Positions 1 to 62,816 of a DNA stretch of 64,000 nucleotides are shown one piece after another. A program made the position numbers and the translations under genes. Where the stretch lies: assembly GCA_903846015.1 (NCBI GenBank), contig CAIMZS010000300.1, forward strand, positions 1 through 64,000, in the 5' to 3' direction. The stretch comes from an uncultured Anaerolineae bacterium. GTDB taxonomy: Bacteria; Chloroflexota; Anaerolineae; Anaerolineales; Villigracilaceae. The notes under the pieces were generated by a model, which saw only the letters and a program-made list of their open reading frames with translations, was not told the DNA's origin and searched no databases. The stretch's first letter is position 1. Each line of letters opens with the position of its first letter.

Positions 1-300
1 ACCAGCGGGCCAATAGCTGTGGCACTCAGAGATCTGAACGCTACAAGTCCTATTTATTTTTCTGATAACGTGGAAAAATTTTATTGGATGATTAAACAGC
101 CGTCTGCTCCATTGATGGTTGTGGACCAGAGTCTTGGCCCGGTATTTAAACAATACTTACCTGAGCATGATGTTGTTATTACGCTTATCGACCAGGCTGG
201 GGCAAGTTCAGAGCTTACAAAATTTTTTCCATCGGCGCAAAAAAAATACACAGGCGATGATGGTGCCATATTTATTATCTACCAGGTGTCGGTTAAGTAA
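1..300 (+). CDS. C-terminal end of an unidentified protein (cut by window edge)
   Basis: The frame is open from the first base and stops at 298-300, so only about the last 99 residues are visible. They form a mixed alpha/beta region without a membrane segment or a motif I recognise, containing the phrases 'APLMVVDQSLGPVF' and 'GAIFIIYQV'. The soluble tails of membrane glycosyltransferases such as the one at 20847-22376 look broadly similar, and the genes that follow build surface glycans, so this may be the tail of such an enzyme. That is inference from context. The GTG at position 19 is internal and should not be taken as the start. Confidence 0.6.
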   Translation, partial: TSGPIAVALRDLNATSPIYFSDNVEKFYWMIKQPSAPLMVVDQSLGPVFKQYLPEHDVVITLIDQAGASSELTKFFPSAQKKYTGDDGAIFIIYQVSVK

Positions 301-23712: not shown

Positions 23713-23797
23713 GGAGGGATGACCGAGCGGCTGAAGGTAACGGTCTTGAAAACCGTCGTGGTGCAAGCCACCGTGGGTTCGAATCCCACTCCCTCCG
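23713..23797 (+). tRNA. tRNA-Ser (anticodon TGA)
   Basis: 85 nt. Acceptor arms GGAGGGA (23713) and TCCCTCC (23790) pair fully; the anticodon arm ACGGT-CTTGAAA-ACCGT gives TGA; a class II long variable arm and the T loop GGTTCGAATCC follow. The 3' CCA is not encoded. Confidence 0.95.
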
Positions 23798-23823
23798 CAG
23801 ATGGTCACCCTAAAAGTGAATAT

Positions 23824-23914
23824 GGGGAGGTGCCAGAGTGGCTGATTGGGCTCGCCTGCTAAGTGAGTGTCGGGGCTTAAACCTCGACCGCGGGTTCAAA
23901 TCCCGCCTTCCCCG
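23824..23914 (+). tRNA. tRNA-Ser (anticodon GCT)
   Basis: 91 nt. Acceptor GGGGAGG pairs with CTTCCCC (one G-T). The anticodon arm CTCGC-CTGCTAA-GTGAG gives GCT; a long variable arm and T loop GGTTCAAATCC fit tRNA-Ser. The CCA end is not encoded. It is 26 bp after the other tRNA-Ser, probably in one transcript. Confidence 0.95.
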
Positions 23915-23918
23915 CTAC

Positions 23919-49793: not shown

Positions 49794-50336
49794 ATGCGAC
49801 CGGATAACACCCCCAACCTGGTAAAAGATGCACAACGCGATCCCGCAGCATTTGCGATGGTCTATGATCGCTATTTGATGCCGGTCTACCGTTATCTCTA
49901 CAGCCGGGTGGGCAATGCCGTGGATGCGGAGGATTTGACGACTCAAACCTTTCTTTCTGCGCTGGAGCGTTTGAGCGGTTACCGGGAAAACGGTAACTTT
50001 GCCGGGTGGTTGTTTGCGATTGCGCACAGCAAGGTTATCGATCACTACCGGCGGGAAAAACCACATGCTGGGAGCGATGTCCTGTGGAAAATTGCGGGGC
50101 AGGATGACCCGGTCCTTGATGTTGAGAAACGGCTGGAATTGGAGAAACTGGCTTCGATTCTCCAACACTTGAGCGCTGACGAACAGGAAATCATCCGGCT
50201 GCGCTATGCGGCTGATCTGTCATTTTCAGAGATGGCTGTCGCACTGGGCAAACGTGAAGATGCTGTTAAAAAGTCACTGTATCGCTTGCTGGAACGCCTG
50301 AAACAGCAGGCCGAGAACCAGATGGAGACGCCATGA
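49794..50336 (+). CDS. ECF RNA polymerase sigma factor
   Basis: 180 residues. Region 2: 'FAMVYDRYLMPVYRYLYSRV', 'AEDLTTQTFLSALERL', 'NFAGWLFAIAHSKVIDHYRR'; region 4: 'LSADEQEIIRLRYAADLSFS' and 'KREDAVKKSLYRLLERLK'. The stop overlaps the ATG of the next gene by 4 bases (ATGA), so sigma factor and membrane partner are made together. Confidence 0.92.
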   Translation: MRPDNTPNLVKDAQRDPAAFAMVYDRYLMPVYRYLYSRVGNAVDAEDLTTQTFLSALERLSGYRENGNFAGWLFAIAHSKVIDHYRREKPHAGSDVLWKIAGQDDPVLDVEKRLELEKLASILQHLSADEQEIIRLRYAADLSFSEMAVALGKREDAVKKSLYRLLERLKQQAENQMETP

Positions 50337-53311
50337 GCGAACCCAACTTGAATCCTGAACTCGAACACAAGCTGCGCGAAGCGCTCAATGCGCCTGCGCC
50401 CGATGTGGCGTTTGCCAACCGTTTGCGCGCAACGCTGCTCGCGAAGGCAGAAAACATGAAGCCTGAACCGAAATCATCCCGGCTGGCCTGGCGGCTGGCG
50501 TTTGCAAGCGTGGTACTGATCCTATTGGGTGTTTTCTTTGGGCCGAAAATTGTGACTGCCATGCGGCAGCTTTTTGGCTATGTGCCCGGCGCCGGACTGG
50601 TAGACCAGAGCATCCCTCTGCGCGTGTTGTCTGAACCGGTGACCGTGACGCGTGATGGCGTGACTCTGACTGTAAAAAGCGCTGTTTTGAGCATCGATAA
50701 GAGTGTGGTGAGCTATTCGCTGAAGAACGTGCCCTGGGAGGCGCTTTCACATCAGGAAAATATTTCCGGTTGTTCCAGTTCCGCCGCGCTGCGCCTGCCG
50801 GGTGGCACGATCCTGGCTGCGGAGAATGGCGGCGGCACGATGAATAGCGTTACCTTCTCCTTTCCCGCCATCCGGGCGGATGTGAATGAAGCCACGTTGG
50901 TGCTGCCCTGCATCCAGAATGCCTTGCCAGGAAAAGCCCCTGAAAATTGGGAGCTGTTGCTGCGTTTTGTGCCTGCCCCGCCTGATTTTCCGGTGGCCCC
51001 GGTGGTGGAAGTGCCCACGCCCACAGCCGCTCCGATTGCCACAGATATTACACTTCCGACCGCTGTACCCAACCCGATGAACCTTGTCAAAGTGGTCGAT
51101 TTGCCGGATGGCTATATCTTTGCGGGCACCTTCCACGCGATTGACCTGCCCAAAGGCGCAGATTCGATGCATCCTTCCGGCATATACAGGGTTACGGACG
51201 CCAACGGTCAGGAAGTTTTCGCCAGCGAGTCTTACGAGCAGCTTTTGCCCATGCCAACTGACCCGACCATCTACAACTGGGGTGCGCAAATCAAAGGCAA
51301 GCAATTTGCCTTTCCGCTGACCATTGCGTTGGATGGCGCGATGGCTGGAACCGCTTCGGCTATAACAACCTTCGAGTTTGATGCAGGCGCGCACCCAAAG
51401 GTTGACCAGGTCTTCAAGCCAAACATCACCGTTGAATTTAGCGGCCGCCAGGTGACCGTGGATACCATCCGTTATACTGGCACAGGCTACGTTTTTGAAT
51501 TTACTACCGATCCGGATGTTACCAACCTGGGTGTGGAAATCCGCGACTTTACTAACAATGGCAGCGATGGCGGCAGGGATCAAGCTGGGCATCTTTTTGC
51601 CAGCATAGATTATGACACCCAGGTTCCAAAGGGGCGCTTTACCGTGATATTGACCGGGATCAGTTTTCATGTCGCTGGCCCCTGGTCGGTACAGTGGCAG
51701 CCAGATGGCGCGCAGCCGGATGCGCCCTCGCCCTTCGGTATTGCCCTTACGATTGACCAATATATCCCGATCGAGGACGGCTATTATCTCATCGGCCACA
51801 CGACCTGGGATGATAAGCGCCTCAGCCGTGTCAGCCTGGGTGACTGGACTATCCGCGCCTACGACGCCGCTGGCAGTGAAATTCCGATGGAACCGGCCTC
51901 CGCCAGCGATGCTGGCATCGATACCAGCGACCCCAGCCAGTGGGTCTACAAAATCTACGGCAAAGCTTTCAATGGCCCGGTCACACTGCGCGCCAGCGAA
52001 GTCACGCTCGGTTTTGCCAGCGCTCCGTCCGTCGAAATCGACCTGCAGCAATACGGCTTTACCGGCGGCGCTGACCAGATCGGCTATGCCTGGAAAGTTG
52101 GCATGCTTTCGCTCGAGCTGCCCGGTCTGATCGCTAAAATCCAGATGCTGGCTTACCAGCGCGAGCGCGATCTGAAAGGCTTCGTTATCACCATCGAGGC
52201 CGACCCGTCCATCACCTCGCTGCCGCTCGACCTGTCGCCGACACCGGCAGGTGCGCAGAGCGGCAGCGGCGGCTCGGCGCGCAACGCTGAAGGCCGCCTG
52301 ATCGATAACATCTTCAGCGATGGAACCATCACCGGCCAGTTCACTCTCACAGCCCACACGGTCAACATCTCTGGCAAGTGGCAGGTGGAGTGGACTCCGC
52401 CGGTTGTGGATGCCGCTGCCAGGCCGGATTCGCCCACTCCAGCCTGTCTTGATCTGGCTAATTGGAAGAAATCCGCCCTGATAACGGTTCCTTTGCCCGA
52501 AATTGGCGGTAGGCTGGTGGTGTATGGGCGCATACTGGAAGACAATCAGCCGCCCTCGCCCGAAAACTACGGCAACCTGCTCACCGACCTGACCGGAAGC
52601 CAGAAACAGATTTTCGGCAAAGGTGTCAACCCTTCCATCTCGGCGGATGGCTCGCTGCTGGCGTATAACTGGAGCGATGGCATCCATGTTGTGGATACCG
52701 CCAGCGGGAAAGATAGCCTGCTCCCCAATCTGAACAGCGATGATTTTGGCCCCAAACTCTCCCCGGATGGCCGAGCACTGGTGTTTGTGCGCCCGGCGGA
52801 ACTGAATCTGTACCTGGTCAATGTCGATGGTTCTGGGCTGCGGCAGTTCACCAGTACCCCCGGGATCGAGGAATACGCCCAGGGCTGGAGCGCGGATGGC
52901 AGCCAAGTGTTGTATCTGAAAATCGACTCGGGTCTGCAGAGCCTGGTGGCAAAAAATATCTCGGACCGGCTGGAAACCACGCTGCTGGCCTTCCCCGCCA
53001 GTGTGGGCGCGCTGGCGCTTTCACCGGATGGCAAGACGCTGGCTTATTCTGCCCCTGTGCATGGACGCATGGCGGGAGGTATCTACCTCGCCCGGTTGGA
53101 CGGCAGCTCCGCGCCCAGGCTGTTTGCCCAACTGGAGCACTGGACGGTCGACACCCCGGTCTGGTCGCCGGATGGTGCCTGGCTGCTGCTCAACATCGTT
53201 GATACGGATGCGTATGCTGCTCAATCTGCTTCGGCCCTGTTGAATATCTCCACCTGCCAGGTCTTCCCGGTCAACGGCTTTGAAGGCACGGCACTGGGCT
53301 GGGTTAAATGA
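50333..53311 (+). CDS. 992-residue membrane protein, probable anti-sigma partner with extracytoplasmic beta-propeller
   Basis: Short cytoplasmic N-terminus (1-50, 'LEHKLREALNAPAPDVAFAN'), one membrane helix (about 52-72, 'AWRLAFASVVLILLGVFF'), and a very large outer part. Residues 85-720 hold repeated beta-sandwich domains, each ending like 'GRFTVILTGISFHVAGPWSV' and 'GQFTLTAHTVNISGKWQVEW'. From about 745 there are TolB/WD40-type blades: 'ISADGSLLAYNW', 'LSPDGRALVFVR', 'WSADGSQVLYLK', 'LSPDGKTLAYS', 'WSPDGAWLLLN'. No zinc motif is present in the N-terminus. Coupling to the ECF gene suggests that it controls that factor and senses something outside; other known anti-sigma factors are far smaller. 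Confidence 0.75.
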   Translation: MSEPNLNPELEHKLREALNAPAPDVAFANRLRATLLAKAENMKPEPKSSRLAWRLAFASVVLILLGVFFGPKIVTAMRQLFGYVPGAGLVDQSIPLRVLSEPVTVTRDGVTLTVKSAVLSIDKSVVSYSLKNVPWEALSHQENISGCSSSAALRLPGGTILAAENGGGTMNSVTFSFPAIRADVNEATLVLPCIQNALPGKAPENWELLLRFVPAPPDFPVAPVVEVPTPTAAPIATDITLPTAVPNPMNLVKVVDLPDGYIFAGTFHAIDLPKGADSMHPSGIYRVTDANGQEVFASESYEQLLPMPTDPTIYNWGAQIKGKQFAFPLTIALDGAMAGTASAITTFEFDAGAHPKVDQVFKPNITVEFSGRQVTVDTIRYTGTGYVFEFTTDPDVTNLGVEIRDFTNNGSDGGRDQAGHLFASIDYDTQVPKGRFTVILTGISFHVAGPWSVQWQPDGAQPDAPSPFGIALTIDQYIPIEDGYYLIGHTTWDDKRLSRVSLGDWTIRAYDAAGSEIPMEPASASDAGIDTSDPSQWVYKIYGKAFNGPVTLRASEVTLGFASAPSVEIDLQQYGFTGGADQIGYAWKVGMLSLELPGLIAKIQMLAYQRERDLKGFVITIEADPSITSLPLDLSPTPAGAQSGSGGSARNAEGRLIDNIFSDGTITGQFTLTAHTVNISGKWQVEWTPPVVDAAARPDSPTPACLDLANWKKSALITVPLPEIGGRLVVYGRILEDNQPPSPENYGNLLTDLTGSQKQIFGKGVNPSISADGSLLAYNWSDGIHVVDTASGKDSLLPNLNSDDFGPKLSPDGRALVFVRPAELNLYLVNVDGSGLRQFTSTPGIEEYAQGWSADGSQVLYLKIDSGLQSLVAKNISDRLETTLLAFPASVGALALSPDGKTLAYSAPVHGRMAGGIYLARLDGSSAPRLFAQLEHWTVDTPVWSPDGAWLLLNIVDTDAYAAQSASALLNISTCQVFPVNGFEGTALGWVK

Positions 53312-53394
53312 CAAAGGGCGCGAACAGCGCGTATCAGGGCTGTTAATTTTTTTGATTGGACCGCAAAAATTCCTGGTTGGGATGTTTTTTTTGT

Positions 53395-53416
53395 GCCCGG
53401 ACGTTTACGTCCGGGC
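53395..53416. repeat. 22-bp palindrome with TT centre
   Basis: Arms GCCCGGACGT and ACGTCCGGGC around TT, 84 bp after the sensor gene. T residues lie on its left side only, so it is not a terminator for the plus-strand gene. Form and place resemble the CACGGCGAT palindromes that accompany the dispersed repeats. Confidence 0.6.
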
Positions 53417-53437
53417 GGAGAAGGCAAACCGCCTCGT

Positions 53438-53485
53438 GTCTGAACCGGCCCTGCTAGAACGGGCACTATCGCAGATTAGAGCAAG
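53438..53485 (-). repeat. Dispersed repeat copy, reverse orientation
   Basis: 48 bp from GTCTGAACCGGCCCTGCTAG to CGCAGATTAGAGCAAG; its reverse complement is the 16507-16554 copy except one base, and equals the right half of 18671-18761 with the CTTGCTCTAA start added. Confidence 0.87.
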
Positions 53486-53538
53486 TGCGAGTGTCTGATT
53501 CCCCTGCAAAAGAGCTTATCTCTCGTCAGGGCGCCGGG

Positions 53539-54252
53539 CTACTTGCAGTACTTTGTCAGCTCAACCCGGTTCTGAACCAGCACTTTGCCGGAGGGGGTGA
53601 TGGCGATAAACTCTTGCTCTCTGAAATACACCATCACCTGGTTGACACGTTTGCGTGAGGCGCCCACCAGGTCGGCGATGTCGCCCTGGGTGATGTGAAT
53701 GGGGATCAGTACGGCGCCATCGGCGGCATCCTGACCGTATTTATCCGCAAACGCCAGCAGTTGGCGCGCTACGCGTCCATAAACATCCAGCGCAGCCAGG
53801 GCCTGGATCAGTTCGTTGGCCAATCGCAAGCGCGCCGAGAGGATGCGCACCAGGTTGTGAGAAACAGGCGGGAAATCATCCAGCATTTGTTGAAAAGCGC
53901 TTTTATCCATCCATAAAAGGAACGAATCTTCGAGGGCAATGGCGCTGGCTGAACGCCCGGCGCTATCGAGCAGACTCATCTCGCCCAGAGTATCCCCTGC
54001 GCCGATCAGAGCCAGCACCACGTCGCGGCCATCAGCCTGTTCGATATGGATCTTGACGGTTCCGACCAGGATAATGTAAACGGCTTCGCCCGGCTGTTCG
54101 GCAGTGACAATGCTGGTACCAGCCGAAAACATGCGGCGATGGGCGTGGTGGCCAATCCAGGCCAATTCTGCCTGACCAAGTCCCTCAAAAAGGGGAATAG
54201 ATGAAAGGATGTTGCGGGTATCGTTCGTTTTGACATCCATCATAGATAGCAT
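53539..54252 (-). CDS. Crp/Fnr-family transcriptional regulator
   Basis: 237 residues from the ATG at 54252, which has GGAGGAG 5 bases upstream. Cyclic-nucleotide-binding-like domain (about 15-130): 'IPLFEGLGQAELAWIG', 'EAVYIILVGTVKIHIEQADG', 'GDTLGEMSLLDSAGRSASAI' with G-E-x-S-L-L and R-S-A-S close to the cAMP pocket of Crp. The C-terminal winged HTH has 'ITQGDIADLVGASRKRVNQV'. No Fnr-type cysteine cluster. It probably responds to cAMP or another nucleotide. Target genes are unknown. Confidence 0.88.
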   Translation of the reverse strand: MLSMMDVKTNDTRNILSSIPLFEGLGQAELAWIGHHAHRRMFSAGTSIVTAEQPGEAVYIILVGTVKIHIEQADGRDVVLALIGAGDTLGEMSLLDSAGRSASAIALEDSFLLWMDKSAFQQMLDDFPPVSHNLVRILSARLRLANELIQALAALDVYGRVARQLLAFADKYGQDAADGAVLIPIHITQGDIADLVGASRKRVNQVMVYFREQEFIAITPSGKVLVQNRVELTKYCK

Positions 54253-54323
54253 TATTGTACTCCTCCCGCAAACATAGCGGTCAAAAAACAGCACAGCAAA
54301 GCCAAAACGATCGGTTTTAGTGC

Positions 54324-55268
54324 CTATGCCGAAGCGGAATAAGCGCTGGTTGGCGCAGCACAGCGCCTGCGCTCGGCTGGCAAGGCCTTTTTATTGACTG
54401 TAAGCTCGAGGGTCTGCCCCTCGCGGGCAGCAAAAACCCCTTTGAAGACTGACCGCGCCTGCTGTTCAAGGGCGTGAAGGCTGGAATCGTCATAAGATGG
54501 GTCATAGTGGAACAAGGCCAACTGCTTTACACCTGCCATAAGCGCCAGTTCGCAAGCCATGCGTGGGGTGGAATGACCAAAACCCTGTTTAAGGGCATAA
54601 TCGGCATCAGAATATTGGGCGTCATGGATGAGCAGGTCCGCGCCGCTTGCAAACGCTGCCAGGCGCTGATCCACTCCAATATAACCTTCGGTATCGGTGG
54701 CGTAAACAAGACTGTGACCGTGCCAATCGATGCGGTAGATGATGACCCCGCCAGGATGAGCATACGATTTCATCATCCGGATTCTGAGGTCATCCGCCAA
54801 ACCTGGTTTGGATGACTGCTGGACGAGACACGGACTGCCGTTCTCAAACGTGATTACATCCGTTTCCGTCACCGCTTGGATTACTTTCGCAGCACGCATT
54901 TCGTCCAGCCTGATCGGAAATGCCGGAGGCGCCTGGTTGCGGTCGAGCACATTCTTCAGGGTCTGATCTGCGCTGTCCGGGCCATAGATGTCCAGATGGG
55001 CGGCTGGGTGGTAGGCCGGGCTAAAAAAAGGAAATCCCTGGGTGTGATCATGATGCAAATGGCTGAACAGCAGGACCGGCTGGGTATCTCGGCGAACGAG
55101 TTCACGACCCAGCGGGATGATACCGGTGCCGGCGTCCAGTATGATGGTGTGGCCGGCCACGCGCACCTCAACACAGGCTGTGTTGCCGCCATAATAAACG
55201 GTTTGCGCTCCCGGGGCGGGGTAACTGCCACGCACGCCCCAAAATTTTACGGTAAAGTTGTTATTCAT
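54324..55268 (-). CDS. MBL-fold metal-dependent hydrolase
   Basis: 314 residues. The N-terminus 'KFWGVRGSYPAPGAQTVYYG' and 'GGNTACVEVRVAGHTIILDA' are typical of the RNase Z-like/PhnP-like MBL group; the metal motif H-x-H-x-D-H is His70-L-His72-His73-Asp74-His75. Later ligands are 'SYAHPGG', 'LVYATDTEG' (Asp) and 'GHSTPRMACEL'. It should cleave a phosphodiester or similar bond in the cytosol. The last 20 residues are basic and Ala/Ser-rich, unlike the family, perhaps a read into former intergenic DNA. Confidence 0.85.
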   Translation of the reverse strand: MNNNFTVKFWGVRGSYPAPGAQTVYYGGNTACVEVRVAGHTIILDAGTGIIPLGRELVRRDTQPVLLFSHLHHDHTQGFPFFSPAYHPAAHLDIYGPDSADQTLKNVLDRNQAPPAFPIRLDEMRAAKVIQAVTETDVITFENGSPCLVQQSSKPGLADDLRIRMMKSYAHPGGVIIYRIDWHGHSLVYATDTEGYIGVDQRLAAFASGADLLIHDAQYSDADYALKQGFGHSTPRMACELALMAGVKQLALFHYDPSYDDSSLHALEQQARSVFKGVFAAREGQTLELTVNKKALPAERRRCAAPTSAYSASA

Positions 55269-55452
55269 AGGTGCCTCCTGTATTCGACATGGTTATTATG
55301 CTGCAAGAGGGCAACTGTCACAAGGAAAAATGGGACAGGGCATGTGAGAAATATTTCACAGGTGCAGGCTAAAGTCTATTCAAAGAAACATAATCAATTC
55401 GCAAGATGGTGGCAAGTAGATGAAAAAAATCGGTTAGAATAAATGTGCTACC

Positions 55453-55695
55453 ATGAAACCCATTCGCGCATCTGACATTGGCTCTTACCTGTACTGCCGC
55501 CGGGCATGGTGGTATCGCCTGATCGGGCAGGAATCCATCAACCACGCCGAAATGGCGGCGGGTACCGATCTGCACCGTCAGCACGGGCGGCAGGTGCTGA
55601 CCGCCGGGCTGATGCGTACGCTTGGCTTTGTCCTGCTGCTGCTGGCTTGCGTCATGCTGACCGCATTCGGATTATTAAACTTCCTGGGCGGCTGA
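55453..55695 (+). CDS. Cas4/Dna2-like nuclease, N-terminal half with membrane helix
   Basis: 80 residues. 'IRASDIGSYLYCRRAWWYRL' is the usual start of Cas4-type PD-(D/E)xK nucleases, with Cys15 as first iron-sulfur ligand; 'GTDLHRQHG' holds the motif I His41. The rest is a membrane helix (about 55-77, 'LGFVLLLLACVMLTAFGLL') that ends the protein. Everything else of the nuclease is in the next gene, whose ATG overlaps this stop by one base (TGATG). It has no function alone by family rules. No CRISPR array or cas gene is near. Confidence 0.75.
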   Translation: MKPIRASDIGSYLYCRRAWWYRLIGQESINHAEMAAGTDLHRQHGRQVLTAGLMRTLGFVLLLLACVMLTAFGLLNFLGG

Positions 55696-56216
55696 TGATC
55701 ATTTTTTATGCTGCCGTCTTCGTTGTGCTGATCGCAATCATCCTGTTTTGGCAATCCGGACGGGCACAAAAAGCCGCTGGTCTGCCGGGTGGGCGTGTGA
55801 TTTATACCGATACGCGCAGTTGGGGCAGCAAGGTTGAAAAGCCGTTGTATGACCCAATGCTGGGGTTGGTAGGAAAACCAGATTACCTGGTTGAAAAGAA
55901 TGGGCGCATCATCCCAGTGGAAGTAAAATCGGGACGGGCGCCGCAGGCTCCCTACGATTCGCACATTTATCAGTTGGCATCTTACTGTCTGCTGGTCGAA
56001 AAAACGATGGGATCGCGCCCGCCCTATGGCATCATCCATTATGAAGACCGCGATTTTGCGATCGATTACACGCGCGAACTTGAACTTGCCTTGCTCGATA
56101 TCCTTGCCGAGATGCGCCGTGACGAGAGGCGTGGCGAAGTAAATCGTTCGCATGAAAATTCTGCGCGCTGCGCCAGGTGCGGTTTCCGGCATGTGTGTGA
56201 GCAGAAAATAGATTGA
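55695..56216 (+). CDS. Cas4/Dna2-like nuclease, catalytic half with membrane helix
   Basis: 173 residues from the ATG at 55695. A membrane helix (3-19) comes first, then the PD-(D/E)xK core: Asp63 in 'GLVGKPDYLV', Glu76 and Lys78 in 'IIPVEVKSGRAP', the QxxxY motif in 'HIYQLASYCLLVE' (Gln93, Tyr97), and the three C-terminal iron-sulfur cysteines 159, 162 and 168 in 'CARCGFRHVC'. Together with the previous gene this completes the Cas4-like set: four Cys, His, Asp, Glu, Lys. Topology fits: both nuclease parts would be in the cytosol, joined by a two-helix hairpin in the membrane. It may act in repair or uptake of DNA at the membrane. Confidence 0.8.
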   Translation: MIIFYAAVFVVLIAIILFWQSGRAQKAAGLPGGRVIYTDTRSWGSKVEKPLYDPMLGLVGKPDYLVEKNGRIIPVEVKSGRAPQAPYDSHIYQLASYCLLVEKTMGSRPPYGIIHYEDRDFAIDYTRELELALLDILAEMRRDERRGEVNRSHENSARCARCGFRHVCEQKID

Positions 56217-56290
56217 TGGCGATATTTCATAAGCTGAACTGAAATTTCAAGCATGGCGTTGAATTCAAATTAACGCTTTATAATTTACAC

Positions 56291-57157
56291 ATGATTGCAT
56301 CCTTTATTCCCCGTCGAATCGTAGTGGCAGGTCATCCCAAGCTGGTTGAATCCTTGCATGAAGCCGGTATTATCTGTGATTATCTTAAGAGCAGAGGTCT
56401 GGAAAGTGCCCACGGCTCATTGTATGATGCCAAACTGCGCAAGCGCGTGCACAACGGAGATTTTGATTTGCTGATCGCCGTTGGAGGCGACGGCACCATG
56501 CTGCGCGCCGGGCATTTGTGCGCCCCGCATGACATCCCAATTATGGGAGTCAACATGGGCAGACTGGGCTATCTCTATCAAGTTGATGCCGGCGATTGGC
56601 AAAAAATGATCGATCTGCTGCTTGGCGGAGATTATTGGACCGAAAAACGCATGATGCTCAGTGCCGAACATTTTCGCGCGGGCGAAAGCCTGGGTTCATG
56701 GCATGCCCTCAATGATGTCGTCGTTTGTCGTGGCGGCTTGCTGCGGCCAATCCACATTAAGACCAGTGTTGACGAACAGTATCTGACCACTTATGTGGCG
56801 GATGGCTTGATCGCCTCCACCGCCACCGGATCAACGGCTTATGCCCTGGCCTCGGGCGGCCCCATTTTACCGCCAGAACTGCGCAACATCCTGTTGATCC
56901 CTATTGCTCCGCACTTATCGGTCGATCGCGCCATTGTGCTGTCCGAAGGATCAAAGGTAAGCATGACCGTACTGAGCGAAAACGCTGTTTGCAGCGTGGA
57001 TGGGCAGATCCCGGTTGGGCTGGCTGAAGATGACCGGGTGGATGTCCACGCCGGGAATGACAGCGTGAAATTCATTCGTTTTGGAGATCCCGGTTATTTC
57101 TATCGCAACCTGACTGCACACATGAATCAGAACGCAACCATAGGACTTCCCCGATGA
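56291..57157 (+). CDS. nadK: NAD kinase
   Basis: 288 residues. The signature GGDGT (65-69) in 'LLIAVGGDGTMLRAGHL', 'PIMGVNMGRLGYLYQV', 'ALNDVVVCRGG', 'YVADGLIASTATGSTAYALA' (in parts) and 'GGPILPPEL' are all present. It phosphorylates NAD to NADP. Its stop overlaps the next gene (ATGA), and nadK followed by a recN one gene away is a common neighbourhood. Confidence 0.94.
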   Translation: MIASFIPRRIVVAGHPKLVESLHEAGIICDYLKSRGLESAHGSLYDAKLRKRVHNGDFDLLIAVGGDGTMLRAGHLCAPHDIPIMGVNMGRLGYLYQVDAGDWQKMIDLLLGGDYWTEKRMMLSAEHFRAGESLGSWHALNDVVVCRGGLLRPIHIKTSVDEQYLTTYVADGLIASTATGSTAYALASGGPILPPELRNILLIPIAPHLSVDRAIVLSEGSKVSMTVLSENAVCSVDGQIPVGLAEDDRVDVHAGNDSVKFIRFGDPGYFYRNLTAHMNQNATIGLPR

Positions 57158-57678
57158 CCGTAAACACCAGCCCCACAACCTGCGCCAATCATCCTGGCGT
57201 TGAAACCATGCTGCGCTGTAACCGCTGTGAGAAACCAATCTGTGTCAAGTGCGCTGTCAGATCGCCCGTCGGATACCGCTGCCCCGAATGCGTCCGCAGC
57301 CAGCAAAAAATCTTTGACACCGCTGTCTGGTCGGATTATGCCCTGGGTTTTGTCGTGGCAGGTATCCTTTCGGGCATCGCCAGTATTTTGATCGGGCTGG
57401 TTGGTTCGATTGGATTTATTGGCTGGTTCCTGGTGATCGCCGGAGCGCCAACCGCGGGGCTTGCGATCGCCGAGGGCACCCGCCTGGTGATCAAGCGTCA
57501 TCGCTCCCGTTCGCTTTTTATCACCATCGCGGTCGCGGTGGCGCTTGGAGCATTTCCTTCCATATTACTGCACCTGGTTAGCTTTAATTTTTTTGGCCTG
57601 GCATTTCAGGGTATCTACCTGGCGATGGCCATTCCCGCCGTTTACACCCGCCTTTCTGGTATTCAGTTGTTTAAATAA
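57154..57678 (+). CDS. B-box-type zinc-finger membrane protein
   Basis: 174 residues, translationally coupled to nadK. The N-terminus has a B-box-like zinc motif: 'TTCANHPGVETMLRCNRCEK' and 'CVKCAVRSPVGYRCPECVR' with paired Cys/His ligands. Three to four membrane helices follow ('YALGFVVAGILSGIASILIG', 'FLVIAGAPTAGLAIAEG', 'LFITIAVAVALGAFPSILLH'). The family occurs beside varied genes in Chloroflexota; function unknown. It is followed after 3 bp by recN, so the three genes are one operon. Confidence 0.78.
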   Translation: MTVNTSPTTCANHPGVETMLRCNRCEKPICVKCAVRSPVGYRCPECVRSQQKIFDTAVWSDYALGFVVAGILSGIASILIGLVGSIGFIGWFLVIAGAPTAGLAIAEGTRLVIKRHRSRSLFITIAVAVALGAFPSILLHLVSFNFFGLAFQGIYLAMAIPAVYTRLSGIQLFK

Positions 57679-57681
57679 GCC

Positions 57682-59418
57682 ATGCTGACCGAACTCCGCA
57701 TTGAAAATTTTGCCATCATCGACAAACTCGAACTCGATCTCAAACCGGGGCTGGTTATTTTTACCGGTGAAACCGGCGCGGGTAAATCCATCATTATGGA
57801 CGCGCTCGAAATGCTGTTGGGCGGGCGTACCGACGCCACTGTTTTGCGCACCGATGCCGAGCGCGCCAGTGTGGAAGGTATCTTCAGACTTTCTGGCATT
57901 ACCCGGGATGCCGTCAACGAGATCCTGAAGCGCGAAGACCTGTTGGATGATGAAGCGTATATTACCCTGGCGCGCGAGGTACGCCGCGAAGGCCGCTCCA
58001 TCGCCCGAATCAATGGGCGCACGGTCAACGTGGCGCTCTTAAAAGAAATCGGCGCTTTTTTGGTGGATATTCATGGGCAGACTGAACATCTGTCGATTCT
58101 GGATGCGCGTACTCACCTGGGGCTGCTTGATCGTTTTGCGGATGTTGATACGCTGTTGGTCCCCTATCGCCAGGCCTATTCCGCGCTGCAGAGTATTCGC
58201 CGCGAGTTGGGCGAGCTGCGCAGCGCCCAGGCTGATTCGGCGCGGCGGATTGAGATGCTCACCTTTCAGGCTGAGGAGGTCGAATCCGCCAGGCTGAAAC
58301 CTGGCGAAGATGAAGAGCTCCGCCTGGAGCGTGATCGCCTGGCTAATTCCGAATCGCTGGCTGCCAGCGCCCAGGAAGCTTTGCAGTTGTTGGATGAGGG
58401 CACCCCTGAAATACCGGCAGTCACAGACCAATTGGGGCAGGCCGTTGCAGCGCTTGCAATGCTGGCTCGCGTTGATTCGGCCAGAACAGAACTTTCCCTG
58501 CGTGCTGAAGCGCTGTTGGAAAATATCTCCGATATTTCGCATGAACTGCGTGATTACCTGGAGCGGATCGAATACAACCCTCGCCGGTTGGAAGATGTCG
58601 AAGAACGTCTCGACATGATGCACCGTTTGATGCGCAAATACGGCGGCACGATTGAATCGGTAATGGCCTTTGGCGTAAAAGCTCGCCGCGATCTGGAGAC
58701 CATCACCAATGCTTCTGAAAAGATTGCCGGGCTGGAAACCCAAGAAGCAGACCTGCTCAAGCAATTGTCTGAGCGCGGCCTCAAGCTCTCCGAAAAGCGC
58801 AAGAAGATTGCCGATACACTCGCTAAAAATATCGAAAGCGAATTGGATGATCTAAAAATGGCCTCCGCGCGTTTCGGCGTGGATTTCCAGACCAGGGCCG
58901 ACGGTGCCGGGCTGCCGTTGAGCAAGGACAACCGGGTCGCTTTTGATGCCAGTGGTTTTGATAGGGTCGAATTTCTGGTGGCGCCCAACCCGGGCGAGGG
59001 CTTGAAGCCACTCGCGCGCATCGCATCCGGAGGAGAAACCTCGCGCCTGATGTTGGCACTCAAAAACACACTGGCTCGCGCAGATCAGATCCCCAGCCTG
59101 GTTTTCGATGAGATCGATCAGGGCATTGGCGGGCGGGTGGGCGGGGTGGTCGGACAAAAGCTTTGGCACCTGGGGCGCGCTCACCAGGTATTATGTATCA
59201 CACACCTGCCACAGTTGGCTGCTTTTGGCGACCAACATTTCAGGGTGCAGAAACTGGTCAGCAATGGGCGCACCACTACGCTGGTGACTGCGATGGAAGG
59301 CGATGAGCGCCTGTTGGAACTTGCCCAAATGTTGGGCGAAGTGACCGAGGGTACGCTGCGCTCGGCGCATGAAATTTTACAATCCGCGCAAACAGTTGCC
59401 GCAAAAGGGAAAAAATAA
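57682..59418 (+). CDS. recN: DNA repair protein RecN
   Basis: 578 residues. 'MLTELRIENFAIIDKLELDL' start, Walker A 'FTGETGAGKSIIMDAL' (GETGAGKS 29-36), 'VDIHGQTEHLSILD', long coiled coil (about 160-370), then the signature 'LARIASGGETSRLMLALKN' and Walker B 'SLVFDEIDQGIGGRVG' with 'CITHLPQLAAFGD'. RecN is an SMC-like ATPase which helps double-strand-break repair. A terminator hairpin follows. Confidence 0.95.
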   Translation: MLTELRIENFAIIDKLELDLKPGLVIFTGETGAGKSIIMDALEMLLGGRTDATVLRTDAERASVEGIFRLSGITRDAVNEILKREDLLDDEAYITLAREVRREGRSIARINGRTVNVALLKEIGAFLVDIHGQTEHLSILDARTHLGLLDRFADVDTLLVPYRQAYSALQSIRRELGELRSAQADSARRIEMLTFQAEEVESARLKPGEDEELRLERDRLANSESLAASAQEALQLLDEGTPEIPAVTDQLGQAVAALAMLARVDSARTELSLRAEALLENISDISHELRDYLERIEYNPRRLEDVEERLDMMHRLMRKYGGTIESVMAFGVKARRDLETITNASEKIAGLETQEADLLKQLSERGLKLSEKRKKIADTLAKNIESELDDLKMASARFGVDFQTRADGAGLPLSKDNRVAFDASGFDRVEFLVAPNPGEGLKPLARIASGGETSRLMLALKNTLARADQIPSLVFDEIDQGIGGRVGGVVGQKLWHLGRAHQVLCITHLPQLAAFGDQHFRVQKLVSNGRTTTLVTAMEGDERLLELAQMLGEVTEGTLRSAHEILQSAQTVAAKGKK

Positions 59419-59450
59419 CCCAGGTTACAAGCGCAGGCTATCGACAGTTC

Positions 59451-59500
59451 AAACATGCCGAAAACGGAGGAAATAACTCTGCTTTCGGCATGTTTCATTT
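59451..59500 (+). terminator. Terminator after recN
   Basis: Thirteen-base arms AAACATGCCGAAA (59451-59463) and TTTCGGCATGTTT (59483-59495), followed by CATTT. The gap from here to 59762 is AT-rich at first and shows no gene or repeat I can support. Confidence 0.72.
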
Positions 59501-59762
59501 ATCCAACTCTATTAAAATTCTATATAAATCTACATTGACGTATTCTCAATTGAACGATAAATTTGTGCTTCGTGTTAAGTAACATCAATTGGATAAATTA
59601 TGCTGCGAAAATGACTGCAACCCGGTCTTGTCCGTGGAACGGTGGCGATTGGAATTCTGCTTATGATCGACGCTGAATCCGTTTATGAACAGGTTGCAGC
59701 AGTCCCTATCAATGAGCGCCTGGCGCTCAGCGATTAATGATCCATCCAGAAAAGGTAGATTA

Positions 59763-60398
59763 ATGGCCGAAAGACCGCGGGAAGATTGGTTATCGTTATC
59801 CGGTGTCGCCAGTATGCTCGGGGTGCACCCATCCACAGTGCGGTTGTGGTCGGATAAGGGTGTTTTCCCGGTGCACCGCACCTCTGGTGGGCACCGGCGT
59901 TATATGCGCGCTGAAGTTGAGCTGTGGATGCAGGCTTCCAGCCAGAAACATGTGATGGAACCTGCCAGCGCTATGCAAAGCGCAGTTGGAAAGATGCGCA
60001 TGCAGATTACAGAGGGGCGGCTGCAAGCCGAACCGTGGTATCAAAAACTGGATGAGAACGCCCGCTCGCAGTATCGGGCCAGCGGAATGAAGCTGGTGGG
60101 AGGCCTGATGAATTATCTTTCAGGCGATGCCACGGGTGCCTCTGCGGAAGCCTATGCGCTTGGCTATGACTACGCCCTGCGCGCCAGGCGCTATGGACTG
60201 GACAGCGTGGATGCAACCCAGGCGTTTTTATTTTTCCGCAGCAGCTTGCTTGAGGCACTGGTGAATGCCTACGAGGAAGCAAAGGTGCCGCCGGGGTTGG
60301 CCTGGAGCAATATGCTCAACCGTATTCATACTTTTACTGATCTGATTCTTATTGACCTGCTAAAGACCTACCAGGTATTTGATGAGGTACACCCATGA
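59763..60398 (+). CDS. MerR-like HTH regulator with RsbR-N-like sensor domain
   Basis: 211 residues from the ATG at 59763. An HTH of the MerR/excisionase type opens it: 'LSLSGVASMLGVHPSTVRLW' and 'GVFPVHRTSGGHRRYMRAEV'. The rest (about 85-205) is helical, 'GLMNYLSGDATGASAEAYAL', 'RSSLLEALVNAYEEAKVPPG', resembling the non-heme globin-like N-terminal domain of RsbR stressosome proteins. It may sense a small ligand or redox state. Its stop overlaps the start of a 48-residue membrane peptide gene (ATGA), and a larger membrane protein gene follows. Confidence 0.75.
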   Translation: MAERPREDWLSLSGVASMLGVHPSTVRLWSDKGVFPVHRTSGGHRRYMRAEVELWMQASSQKHVMEPASAMQSAVGKMRMQITEGRLQAEPWYQKLDENARSQYRASGMKLVGGLMNYLSGDATGASAEAYALGYDYALRARRYGLDSVDATQAFLFFRSSLLEALVNAYEEAKVPPGLAWSNMLNRIHTFTDLILIDLLKTYQVFDEVHP

Positions 60399-60541
60399 AT
60401 AAGAAAAGATCGCAGCGTTTCCACCCTTCAGTCCTTACCAAAAAACTGGTGCCTGTATTCATGGCGGTGATCCTGCTGGGGCTGTTGACCGTAATCGTCG
60501 TGACCGCAATGGCAGTTCTTAGCATCACCCCCGGCTTCTAG
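60395..60541 (+). CDS. 48-residue single-pass membrane peptide
   Basis: Starts on the stop codon of the HTH gene (ATGA at 60395-60398) and ends in TAG at 60539-60541. It reads 'MNKKRSQRFHPSVLTKKLVP', then the membrane helix 'VFMAVILLGLLTVIVVTAMA' and VLSITPGF. A positively charged N-terminus and one helix suggest an inner-face-positive anchor. Too small for most gene finders. The overlap with a regulator gene and the membrane protein 33 bp on suggest a small operon; the peptide may be a partner of either. Confidence 0.65.
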   Translation: MNKKRSQRFHPSVLTKKLVPVFMAVILLGLLTVIVVTAMAVLSITPGF

Positions 60542-60574
60542 CCCGCGAGTTTAATACCATCTTCAGGAGACCGT

Positions 60575-61261
60575 ATGAATTTCATCCCCTTGCTTTCCAC
60601 ACTGGTTAGTTTCGCATTTACTTACGCAGTTTTTCGCCGCTACCAGTTAAAGCGCGGCACCCATTTGCTTTTATGGGCTTTTGGGCTGCTGTTGTATGGC
60701 TTGGGGACACTCTCTGAGGTGATACTCGGGTTTGTGTTCAATGGGATGTTGATCAAATTATGGTATCTGACTGGCGCCATGCTGACTGCGGCATGGCTGG
60801 GTCAGGGAAGCATGTTCCTGTTGATCCGCAAAGGGAATTGGGCCCGGTATCTGGCATTTGGGTTGGCGGCACTCTCTGTTCTGGCGGTGGTGATGCTGGC
60901 GATTGCTCCGGTAGCGGCAGGCGCGCAAGCCAGTTACAACGTGGCGGGCACCATCTCTGAGCAGTATAAAGCCATCCTGACACGCAGCGGGCTGATCATC
61001 TTTCTGACAATTATCCTGAATATCTACGGCACACTCGGGTTGGTTGGCGGGGCGTTATACTCGGCCTTCCTTTTTTGGCGCAAACAGGTGCTGGCAAATC
61101 GCATGTTCGGCAATATCCTGATCGCGGCAGGGGCGCTTTCACCAGCGATGGCGGGGTCATTTGTGAAGGCTGGTATTGTGGATGCGCTGTATGTCAGCGA
61201 ATTAATAGGCGTGGTGTTAATGTTCATTGGTTTTATTCAGGCTACCAGCGGCAAAGATTAA
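60575..61261 (+). CDS. Seven-helix membrane protein of unknown function
   Basis: 228 residues, AGGAGACC ribosome-binding site. About seven membrane helices: 'NFIPLLSTLVSFAFTYAVF', 'LLLWAFGLLLYGLGTLSEVI', 'LWYLTGAMLTAAWLGQGSMF', 'YLAFGLAALSVLAVVMLAIA', 'GLIIFLTIILNIYGTLGLVG', 'MFGNILIAAGALSPAMAGSF', 'LYVSELIGVVLMFIGFIQ'. No transport or enzyme motif that I know. It belongs with the HTH gene and the 48-residue peptide upstream; the three might form a membrane sensing unit. Confidence 0.7.
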   Translation: MNFIPLLSTLVSFAFTYAVFRRYQLKRGTHLLLWAFGLLLYGLGTLSEVILGFVFNGMLIKLWYLTGAMLTAAWLGQGSMFLLIRKGNWARYLAFGLAALSVLAVVMLAIAPVAAGAQASYNVAGTISEQYKAILTRSGLIIFLTIILNIYGTLGLVGGALYSAFLFWRKQVLANRMFGNILIAAGALSPAMAGSFVKAGIVDALYVSELIGVVLMFIGFIQATSGKD

Positions 61262-61315
61262 ATCACCACGCGGGTCTCTTTTTATCATTCTCACTGTGAG
61301 TGATAAAATACATGC

Positions 61316-61813
61316 ATGAATAATATCCTGGAAACCCCGCTTGTAGGTAATACCCGCCGCAACCATGCCCTCGAACATGCCACCATCCATATCCTGAGTG
61401 AACGCTTTCCGCGCCGGGCAATGGCAGGCCATTCAAACCCGAGCGGTTTTTTTCTGCTCGGCGATCTGCCAACCGAACAGGTGCGTGAGGCAGTCACAGA
61501 GGCGCTCGCCCGTTTGCAAAACGGCGAAAGCCACCTGGCTATTCACGAAGGCTGTGGCACCAATTACGTTGTGACCGGCGGGTTGGCAGCCCTGTTTGCC
61601 TTTGTGGGCATGAGCGGCACCCGCAGCAACCGCGAGCGCGCTGAACGCATCCCAATGGTGATGCTGCTTTCAATACTGGCCTTCATATTTGGGCAGGCGC
61701 TTGGGCCGGCCTTACAAAAAAATATCACCACGCAGCCCGATCCGGGCCGCATGGCACTGGTGGATGTATACCCTGTGGCAAACAATGTGCATCGGGTGGT
61801 AACCAGCAACTGA
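61316..61813 (+). CDS. Conserved protein of unknown function (DUF6391-like)
   Basis: 165 residues. 'NTRRNHALEHATIHILSERF' with HALEHAT near the N-terminus, 'AGHSNPSGFFLLGDLPTEQV', 'ALARLQNGESHLAIHEGCGTN', named in part, and one or two membrane helices ('VTGGLAALFAFVGM', 'IPMVMLLSILAFIFGQALGP'). I recall this pattern from a family of uncharacterised proteins in Cyanobacteria and Chloroflexota (DUF6391), but I am not sure of the number. The paired His/Glu of HALEHAT could bind metal. It is 13 bp before holA. Confidence 0.65.
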   Translation: MNNILETPLVGNTRRNHALEHATIHILSERFPRRAMAGHSNPSGFFLLGDLPTEQVREAVTEALARLQNGESHLAIHEGCGTNYVVTGGLAALFAFVGMSGTRSNRERAERIPMVMLLSILAFIFGQALGPALQKNITTQPDPGRMALVDVYPVANNVHRVVTSN

Positions 61814-61826
61814 GCTTCCATTCTCG

Positions 61827-62816
61827 ATGTCAGACGTTCATATTACCTATTTCCTGGGCAGCGATGATCTGGCCATCCGCAAAGCAGCGGATAAGCTGGC
61901 GGCTGCAATGTTTAACGATCCCACAGCAGCCGGGATGAATACCTCACGTCTGGATGCGCGCACCGTTGGCGAAAATGACCTGGCGAATGCCATCGGCGCA
62001 ATGCCATTCCTGGCTTCACAGCGGTTGGTGGTGCTGGAATATGTTTCTAAAAAATATACCGGTCTGGATGGGCATAAGAAATTCCTGGCCTTTCTGGAAA
62101 CGGTACCCCCATCTACACGCCTGGTGCTGATCGATATTGAAGAGATCAAAGATAAGGAAGTCGCGAACCACTGGTTGGTGAAATGGACAGGGAAGAATGC
62201 TGGCAAGGCAGAATATAAGGCCTTGATGATGCCGAACCAGAAGGCGATGCCTGGCTGGATCGTGGCGGAGGCCAAACATCAGGGTGGAACAATAGCGCCG
62301 CCAGCAGCGCTGCGCCTGGCAGAAATGACCGGCGAAAATACCCGTCAGGCGGCACAGGAGATCACCAAGCTGCTGACTTATGTCAATTACGCGCATGCTA
62401 TTGATATTGAGGATGTGGAAGCGGTCAGCATCCTGACCGCCAGCGTGGATGTTTTTGAACTGGTGGACGCCATGGGAAAACAGGATGGCAAAACCGCTCA
62501 AAAGCTCTTCCACCTGCTGATGGAAGAAAAGGATGCTTTTGAAATCTTTGGGCTGGTGGTGCGCCAGTTCCGGCTGCTGACCCTGGCGCGCGATGTAATG
62601 GATGACGGCGGGACATTAGCGGAAGTGACCGATGTGCTGGGCGTTCATCCTTATGTGGCCCAAAAGTCATTCGATCAGGCGCGCGCCTTCACTATGAGCA
62701 CACTGGATGCCATCTATCATCGCCTGTTAGCGATGGACGAGGCCGCCAAGACTGGCGGCATGCCGTTGGATGCCTCGCTGGATATGTTGATCACGGAATT
62801 GGCTGGCAAGCGTTAA
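61827..62816 (+). CDS. holA: DNA polymerase III subunit delta
   Basis: 329 residues. 'VHITYFLGSDDLAIRKAADK' start, 'AIGAMPFLASQRLVVLEYVS', 'GGTIAPPAALRLAEMTGENT', 'AAQEITKLLTY', 'VFELVDAMGKQDGKTAQKLF' and 'IFGLVVRQFRLLTLARDV' follow the HolA order from the ATPase-like domain to the collar domain. Delta opens the sliding clamp within the clamp loader. It lacks a functional ATP site, as usual for delta. Confidence 0.9.
   Translation: MSDVHITYFLGSDDLAIRKAADKLAAAMFNDPTAAGMNTSRLDARTVGENDLANAIGAMPFLASQRLVVLEYVSKKYTGLDGHKKFLAFLETVPPSTRLVLIDIEEIKDKEVANHWLVKWTGKNAGKAEYKALMMPNQKAMPGWIVAEAKHQGGTIAPPAALRLAEMTGENTRQAAQEITKLLTYVNYAHAIDIEDVEAVSILTASVDVFELVDAMGKQDGKTAQKLFHLLMEEKDAFEIFGLVVRQFRLLTLARDVMDDGGTLAEVTDVLGVHPYVAQKSFDQARAFTMSTLDAIYHRLLAMDEAAKTGGMPLDASLDMLITELAGKR

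Follow-up and report, generated by a model that had tools for sequence, protein, structure and literature searches.

The locus

The window, a 64,000-nucleotide stretch of contig C300 in a draft genome of 6.5 Mb, carries two small genes, called g1 and g2 here, which together resemble a gene for a Cas4-like nuclease (Table 1). The first runs from an ATG at 55453 to a TGA at 55693-55695, and the second from an ATG at 55695 to a TGA at 56214-56216. An initial annotation of this DNA had given these gene positions and the TGATG overlap, and had assigned the first Cys and the motif I His to g1 and the Asp, Glu-x-Lys, QxxxY and three further Cys to g2; both the positions, on re-reading of the coordinates, and the assignment of residues were exact. 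Downstream of g2 lie genes that, judged by their sequences, are presumably those of NadK and RecN. Elsewhere in the window (23713-23915) there are two neighbouring tRNA-Ser genes whose anticodons differ.

Table 1. Features of the split nuclease locus, in window coordinates
Feature	Position	Strand	Support or occurrence
g1, 80 aa: Cys and motif I His, N-terminal nuclease part, membrane helix 1 last	55453..55695	+	
g2, 173 aa: membrane helix 2, then the remaining Cas4-like core	55695..56216	+	
TGATG, g1 stop and g2 start, one-base overlap	55693..55697	+	
Cys15 codon (g1), predicted first iron-sulfur ligand	55495..55497	+	128/128 readable homologues
His41 codon (g1), motif I, GxxxH	55573..55575	+	131/131
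Membrane helix 1, g1 residues ~57-75, predicted N-in/C-out	55621..55677	+	hydropathy, charge, model helix 30-78
Membrane helix 2, g2 residues 1-19, predicted N-out/C-in	55695..55751	+	hydropathy, charge, model helix 84-111
Asp63 codon (g2), motif II	55881..55883	+	147/152
Glu76-x-Lys78 codons (g2), motif III	55920..55928	+	Glu 149/152, Lys 151/152
Gln93-x3-Tyr97 codons (g2)	55971..55985	+	Gln 150/152, Tyr 146/152
Cys159, Cys162 and Cys168 codons (g2), predicted three further iron-sulfur ligands	56169..56198	+	each 152/152
Context 3' of g2: genes for NAD kinase (presumed), B-box zinc finger protein and RecN (presumed)	56291..59418	+	

Cas4-type active-site residues divided between two genes

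The two products tile the NCBIfam cas4 model (TIGR00372). Residues 5-49 of g1 align with model positions 2-46 (E 7.9e-6) and residues 47-169 of g2 with positions 57-179 (67.8 bits, against a cut-off of 65), with g1 by itself below the cut-off; the roughly 10 model positions between the halves coincide with the two hydrophobic segments at the end of g1 and the start of g2. In Pfam, g2 matches PDDEXK_1 (8e-9) and Cas_Cas4 (PF01930; 2e-8, score 35 against a cut-off of 22.7), and g1 matches Exo5 alone, weakly (0.009). PADLOC matches g2 to Cas4 and, more weakly, to DruK, and no defence system is inferred from these matches.

Conservation was counted over distinct homologues, 131 of g1 and 152 of g2, leaving out a truncated g2 copy (L166) and every g1 candidate below 30 bits. 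The motif I His and the first Cys of g1 (the latter readable in 128, with three sequences cut by contig ends) and the three Cys of g2 have no exceptions. The catalytic residues of g2 are each retained in 146-151 of the 152 sequences, the exceptions being divergent members from other classes. When the two chains are combined, the set of Cas4-type motifs (His, Asp, Glu-x-Lys and Gln-x3-Tyr) is complete, and the pattern of one N-terminal and three C-terminal cysteines by which Cas4 has been defined (PMC3466216) extends over g1 and g2. The tiling and these counts bear out the earlier proposal of a Cas4/RecB-type nuclease spread over two genes with its catalytic and iron-sulfur residues complete across the pair. 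Cas4 is by definition a single polypeptide, and the pair is not, with one exception (L162, see below).

Two genes rather than one interrupted gene

The one-base overlap of stop and start in the window would also fit a single gene, encoding one membrane Cas4, that has been interrupted by a sequencing error or by a recent or programmed frameshift. The one-piece homologue L162 and the 25 of 78 Anaerolineales pairs in which both genes share a frame speak for this explanation, but the broader survey argues strongly against it. A search of 41 genomes (that of the window and its relatives) found g2 in 37, and in all 30 loci from this search g1 is a separate ORF on the same strand upstream of g2; at two of them (L015 and L016) g1 was detected by profile only, about 0.65-0.75 kb from g2, and a contig end truncates a third (L026). 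Spacing was surveyed at 80 named Anaerolineales loci, 78 of them with both genes. The gap is at most 30 nt (down to -4) at 33 loci, 31-300 nt at 19 and more than 400 nt at 26; at the remaining two, both within 0.7 kb of a contig end, g1 is absent. The two frames differ in 53 of the 78 pairs, and gene-free spacers span -4 to about 230 nt, with spacers of up to 225 nt weighing against an interrupted gene. At 24 of the 26 wide-gap loci (24 of the 78 pairs) the halves are separated by a same-strand HEAT-like gene of about 210 codons, present in one or two copies and with weak PDS5/Cnd1 matches (L065, L088, L102, L125 and 20 more); at the other two, another ORF lies between the halves (L066) or g1 itself is disturbed (L094).

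The variable spacing, the intervening genes and the differing frames argue that the halves are translated separately. Together with the unlinking of the halves in nine of nine tested genomes (see below), spacing and intervening genes rule out a frameshift or assembly error, and the explanation by a single interrupted gene is left with next to no likelihood. The initial annotation had named an uninterrupted single gene as the result that would overturn it, and as a general state this is now ruled out.

A predicted membrane hairpin at the gene break

The helix at the end of g1 has a mean hydropathy of 2.68 over 19 residues, and the N-terminal hydrophobic stretch of g2 reaches 2.96; the one-piece Cas4 encoded in the same genome has no comparable stretch (maximum 1.32). 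The net charge on the N-terminal side of the g1 helix is +2.9 and on its C-terminal side +0.3, a bias found in 120 of 128 homologues; for the g2 helix the corresponding values are about 0 and +2.6, with the bias in 139 of 152. Hydropathy is below 1.6 in 10 of the 152 g2 sequences, and as far as can be seen these are sequences cut near the first residue of the profile. The charge bias argues that both parts of the core lie inside the cell and that the two genes are divided at the outer tip of a hairpin, which also follows from the presence of one hydrophobic helix per gene at the break.

AlphaFold2 was run on locus L089 as a read-through chain, with one stop translated as Gln, so that the model (mean pLDDT 76.6, pTM 0.64) is of a single artificial chain and not of a complex. 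A helix (residues 30-78) runs from motif I into the membrane and is followed by a tight turn, a second helix (residues 84-111, pLDDT mostly above 90) and then the core. Confidence is low at the cysteine-rich end (mean pLDDT 40-58 across the blocks covering residues 231-255); with this region poorly modelled and the chain artificial, the case for a shared cluster is drawn from Cas4. The best Foldseek matches of the model are Cas4 chains (8d3l, E 2.4e-5), followed by Dna2 and MGME1. In VIA-align the Cas4 chain 7mi4 aligns with Z 14.8 and an rmsd of 2.5 over 126 residues, spanning model positions 1..235 and thus both halves, and is followed by other Cas4 chains and then by AdnA, MGME1, DinG and EXO5 at 10-11. 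Hydropathy and the two-helix hairpin on a Cas4 core agree with the membrane hairpin that had been placed at the gene break, and the cytosolic location proposed for both parts is the one that the charge bias predicts.

Co-occurrence of the two genes

Strong g2 matches (at least 146 bits) were found in 61 of 301 sampled genomes of the phylum Chloroflexota, and all 61 also contain g1; the division into 61 genomes with strong and 30 with divergent g2 is our own choice. In nine genomes g2 has no g1 beside it (G039, G075, G133, G188, G244, G297, G311, G318 and G323). A g1 profile search located g1 elsewhere in all nine: about 0.89 Mb from g2 on the same contig in G323, away from g2 in the single-contig genome G244, and on a different contig in the other seven. 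Conversely, the same search found no g1 in four genomes that lack g2 (G025, G038, G204 and G236), and a fifth genome without g2 (G005) gave a match of 18 bits only.

The association is looser among the divergent members. A g1 match is present in 19 of the 30 genomes with divergent g2, and the profile found nothing in the other 11, at four of which (L162, L164, L170 and L172) g1-like genes are visible by eye. One genome that is 82% complete (G100) has g1 at 76 bits with no g2 found. The other g1-only matches (G165, G189 and G251) are of 22 bits in long frames and look like the N-termini of ordinary Cas4 proteins. Weaker g2 matches that start well within the profile, several of them adjoining cas1, were likewise set aside as ordinary Cas4.

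A mirror-tree comparison of g1 and g2 gave r 0.85 (60 pairs drawn from 127), which fits co-inheritance and is no proof of contact; the tree from this analysis did not resolve classes. The pair is present in all 18 sampled genomes of the window's family, and in Anaerolineales it is inherited like a core gene. Separate g1 and g2 genes are found throughout the phylum, and the two-gene arrangement is an old one, retained in many related bacteria.

Divergent and decayed copies

Locus L162 (genome G307) is the one-piece homologue with both helices that the initial annotation had advised looking for. Both halves lie in one ORF with the helices in tandem, which is what a hairpin predicts, and the Asp has been lost. 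By eye, L162, L164, L170 and L172 have a g2 without Asp, Glu or more and a g1 without the motif I His, and all four retain the cysteines of both parts; their g1 sequences score below 30 bits and are outside the residue counts given above. At L163 the motif I His is lost and g2 is apparently intact, and at L165 no g1 was found. Genome G265 has a second, interrupted g2 copy (L166) in addition to a complete pair.

That catalytic residues have decayed in parallel in both proteins while the cluster ligands persist suggests, from the sequences, that g1 and g2 form one functional unit. The persistence of the four cysteines after the loss of Asp, Glu or His at L162, L164, L170 and L172 could also mean that the membrane form is primarily a non-catalytic iron-sulfur scaffold or sensor, with nuclease activity secondary. 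This is improbable for the pair in general, however, given that each active-site residue is present in no fewer than 146 of the 152 distinct g2 sequences and in all 131 g1 sequences counted.

Chromosomal neighbourhood and CRISPR

At 73 of the 80 Anaerolineales loci nadK comes after g2, and at 70 of 80 the order nadK, B-box zinc finger protein gene, recN follows. In the window the B-box protein gene (57154-57678), so assigned by Pfam, encodes several hydrophobic segments. In other Chloroflexota classes the pair is preceded in several loci by a gene for an M50 (RseP-type) protease and at some loci by an HD-domain gene. No cas gene was recognized within window positions 50000-62000, no cas or restriction gene among the flanking ORFs listed for 20 Chloroflexota loci, and no defence gene among the flanking genes listed in Chloroflexota. 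The pair thus lacks the adjacent cas1/cas2 by which CRISPR-associated Cas4 (the equivalog) is recognized and, like solo-Cas4, is encoded away from CRISPR loci. The window's genome does contain cas1 adjoining the one-piece cas4, on another contig (C116, 910-2436).

That coexistence, and a strong association across the 301 genomes (cas1 in 48 of 61 genomes with strong g2 against 66 of 240 others; Fisher p 5e-13), might suggest that the pair is an accessory membrane-bound Cas4 that aids CRISPR adaptation. The association is confounded by ancestry, however, and 13 of the 61 genomes have the pair without cas1. Within the window's family, cas1 occurs in only 10 of the 18 genomes, all of which have the pair, and at the loci read the pair is away from cas genes. 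A role in CRISPR adaptation is accordingly very unlikely. Co-occurrence with ComEC was considered as a test of a link to DNA uptake, and is uninformative because ComEC is present in 270 of the 301 genomes.

Plasmids and phages

The pair also occurs on plasmids of Bacillus (three records) and of planctomycetes (three records). It lies beside a Helicase_C_2 helicase gene on a Bacillus subtilis plasmid, beside a DNA methyltransferase gene on a Paludisphaera plasmid, and, in Singulisphaera, on a conjugative plasmid that also encodes a MobF relaxase and an N-6 methylase; a Planctomyces plasmid carries a shorter relative. By eye, the translated Bacillus and Paludisphaera pairs have every key residue and both helices. 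On the Bacillus subtilis plasmids (L183, 1333-4414, and L187) the gene order is an XPD/DinG-type helicase, a small gene, the split pair, and then Hfq, thermonuclease and toprim. Plasmid queries with g2 of other classes returned the same records and otherwise mostly annotated CRISPR cas4, and so added no new phylum.

Phages gave no match for the pair, and none of the 17 IMG/VR stretches that fit a pattern encodes a relative. With these results and so few plasmid records, a mobile or phage origin was rejected.

A proposed membrane-tethered nuclease at DNA ends

The reading that we favour, with a probability of about 0.6, is that the pair is a membrane-tethered, two-chain nuclease of the solo-Cas4 type, whose chains are stapled by an iron-sulfur cluster and which handles DNA ends at the membrane. 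The g1 and g2 chains would pair through their helices, and the Cas4 core would sit at the inner side of the membrane. A [4Fe-4S] cluster held by one g1 residue and three g2 residues would probably staple the chains together, in which case nuclease activity would need both subunits and an intact cluster. Tethering would hold the enzyme off the bulk of the chromosome and place it where DNA ends may appear, from incoming phage, conjugative or transforming DNA or from repair near the membrane, and the enzyme might trim such ends as Cas4, AddB and EXO5 do.

End handling at the membrane could serve to guard DNA entry or to repair DNA, and the two are given here without ranking; broad retention among relatives and the nadK-recN neighbourhood speak for repair as much as the parallel with SNIPE does for entry guarding. 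In the first case, which accords with the part in defence at DNA entry or exit that the initial annotation had suggested, the pair would be a defence nuclease resembling SNIPE, able to tell self from non-self by its tethering and to cut DNA as it comes in at the membrane. This is a possible role, if a doubtful one. The predicted topology of g2 is that of SNIPE (PMC13190303), and on plasmids the pair has genes for a MobF relaxase and for DNA methylases in its vicinity. Against this, inheritance in Anaerolineales follows the pattern of a core gene (18 of 18 sampled genomes of the window's family), phages and IMG/VR are without a match, the nadK-recN synteny holds at 70 of 80 loci, and no cas or restriction gene was recognized among the listed Chloroflexota flanking ORFs; the flanks in the genomes read point towards housekeeping (nadK-recN, rseP) and away from DNA entry.

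In the second case the pair would process ends at the membrane during double-strand-break or fork repair, in a pathway linked to RecN. The conserved g1-g2-nadK-B-box-recN order in Anaerolineales (again 70 of 80 loci), the structural kinship with AdnA, MGME1, EXO5 and Dna2, and persistence throughout the phylum are consistent with such a role, which we put forward tentatively. In other classes, however, the pair comes after the gene for an rseP-type M50 protease. The genes nadK and recN are adjacent in many bacteria that do not have the g1-g2 pair, and the link between the pair and recN may therefore be passive.

A further extension of the favoured reading, which is speculative, is that the nuclease, with its shared active site and stapling cluster, guards DNA ends at the membrane under redox control while sparing the cell's own DNA, that it is ancestral in Chloroflexota, and that plasmids have taken it to other phyla. 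Loss of the cluster to oxygen, nitric oxide or iron shortage would let the halves part and switch the nuclease off.

Cas4, AddB, EXO5 and Dna2 keep their clusters inside one protein. If cluster ligands and active site are indeed divided between two chains, the task of the cluster (to assemble, regulate or catalyse) becomes directly addressable. It is suggested, moreover, that the solo-Cas4 found throughout the phylum, described as functionally uncharacterized, is membrane-bound and needs a partner, annotation having divided the whole into a fragment of Cas4 and a small protein without a name; studying the annotated half by itself would be expected to fail.

Comparison with known systems

The closest known relative is Cas4 itself (TIGR00372, PF01930), which shares with the pair the RecB-like motifs, the order of the four cysteines and the fold (Z 14.8, 7mi4). 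Cas4 is one chain, whereas the pair consists of two, has a predicted membrane hairpin separating motif I from the strand that bears the Asp, and lacks a cas1/cas2 neighbour.

Solo-Cas4 proteins encoded outside CRISPR loci are reported to form a monophyletic group in many Chloroflexi (Hudaiberdiev 2017, PMC5704561), and this group and the g2 proteins of the present study, which come from the same phylum, probably have members in common. In the available text of that paper the words 'split' and 'transmembrane' do not occur, and neither a first gene nor a membrane anchor is mentioned. Within the open PMC literature (subscription papers and preprints being outside this scope) no description of a split or membrane Cas4 was recognized; solo-Cas4 in Chloroflexi is known, and the gene split and the membrane hairpin, of which no mention was found, are apparently new.

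AddB, AdnA, EXO5, Dna2 and MGME1 have the PD-(D/E)XK fold in common with the pair. In these enzymes the nuclease domain is a single chain with no known membrane hairpin, and several are joined to helicases. AddB, EXO5 and Dna2 contain an iron-sulfur cluster (PMC3466216, PMC11981726).

SNIPE is a membrane-bound anti-phage nuclease with GIY-YIG and DUF4041 domains in one chain, and illustrates how a tethered nuclease can leave the chromosome intact and still cut DNA on its entry at the membrane (PMC13190303). Its outer N-terminus, single helix and cytosolic nuclease are like those predicted for g2 from hydropathy and charge. The nucleases themselves are unrelated, however: GIY-YIG and DUF4041 belong to SNIPE, and neither has a Pfam match in g1 or g2 at E up to 10.

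A precedent for the split comes from split-Doa10, a naturally split membrane protein (PMC3464245). There too a membrane protein has been divided by gene fission and its two chains reassemble. The g1-g2 pair differs in that the division would extend beyond a helix bundle to a catalytic core of the soluble type, with an active site shared between the two chains.
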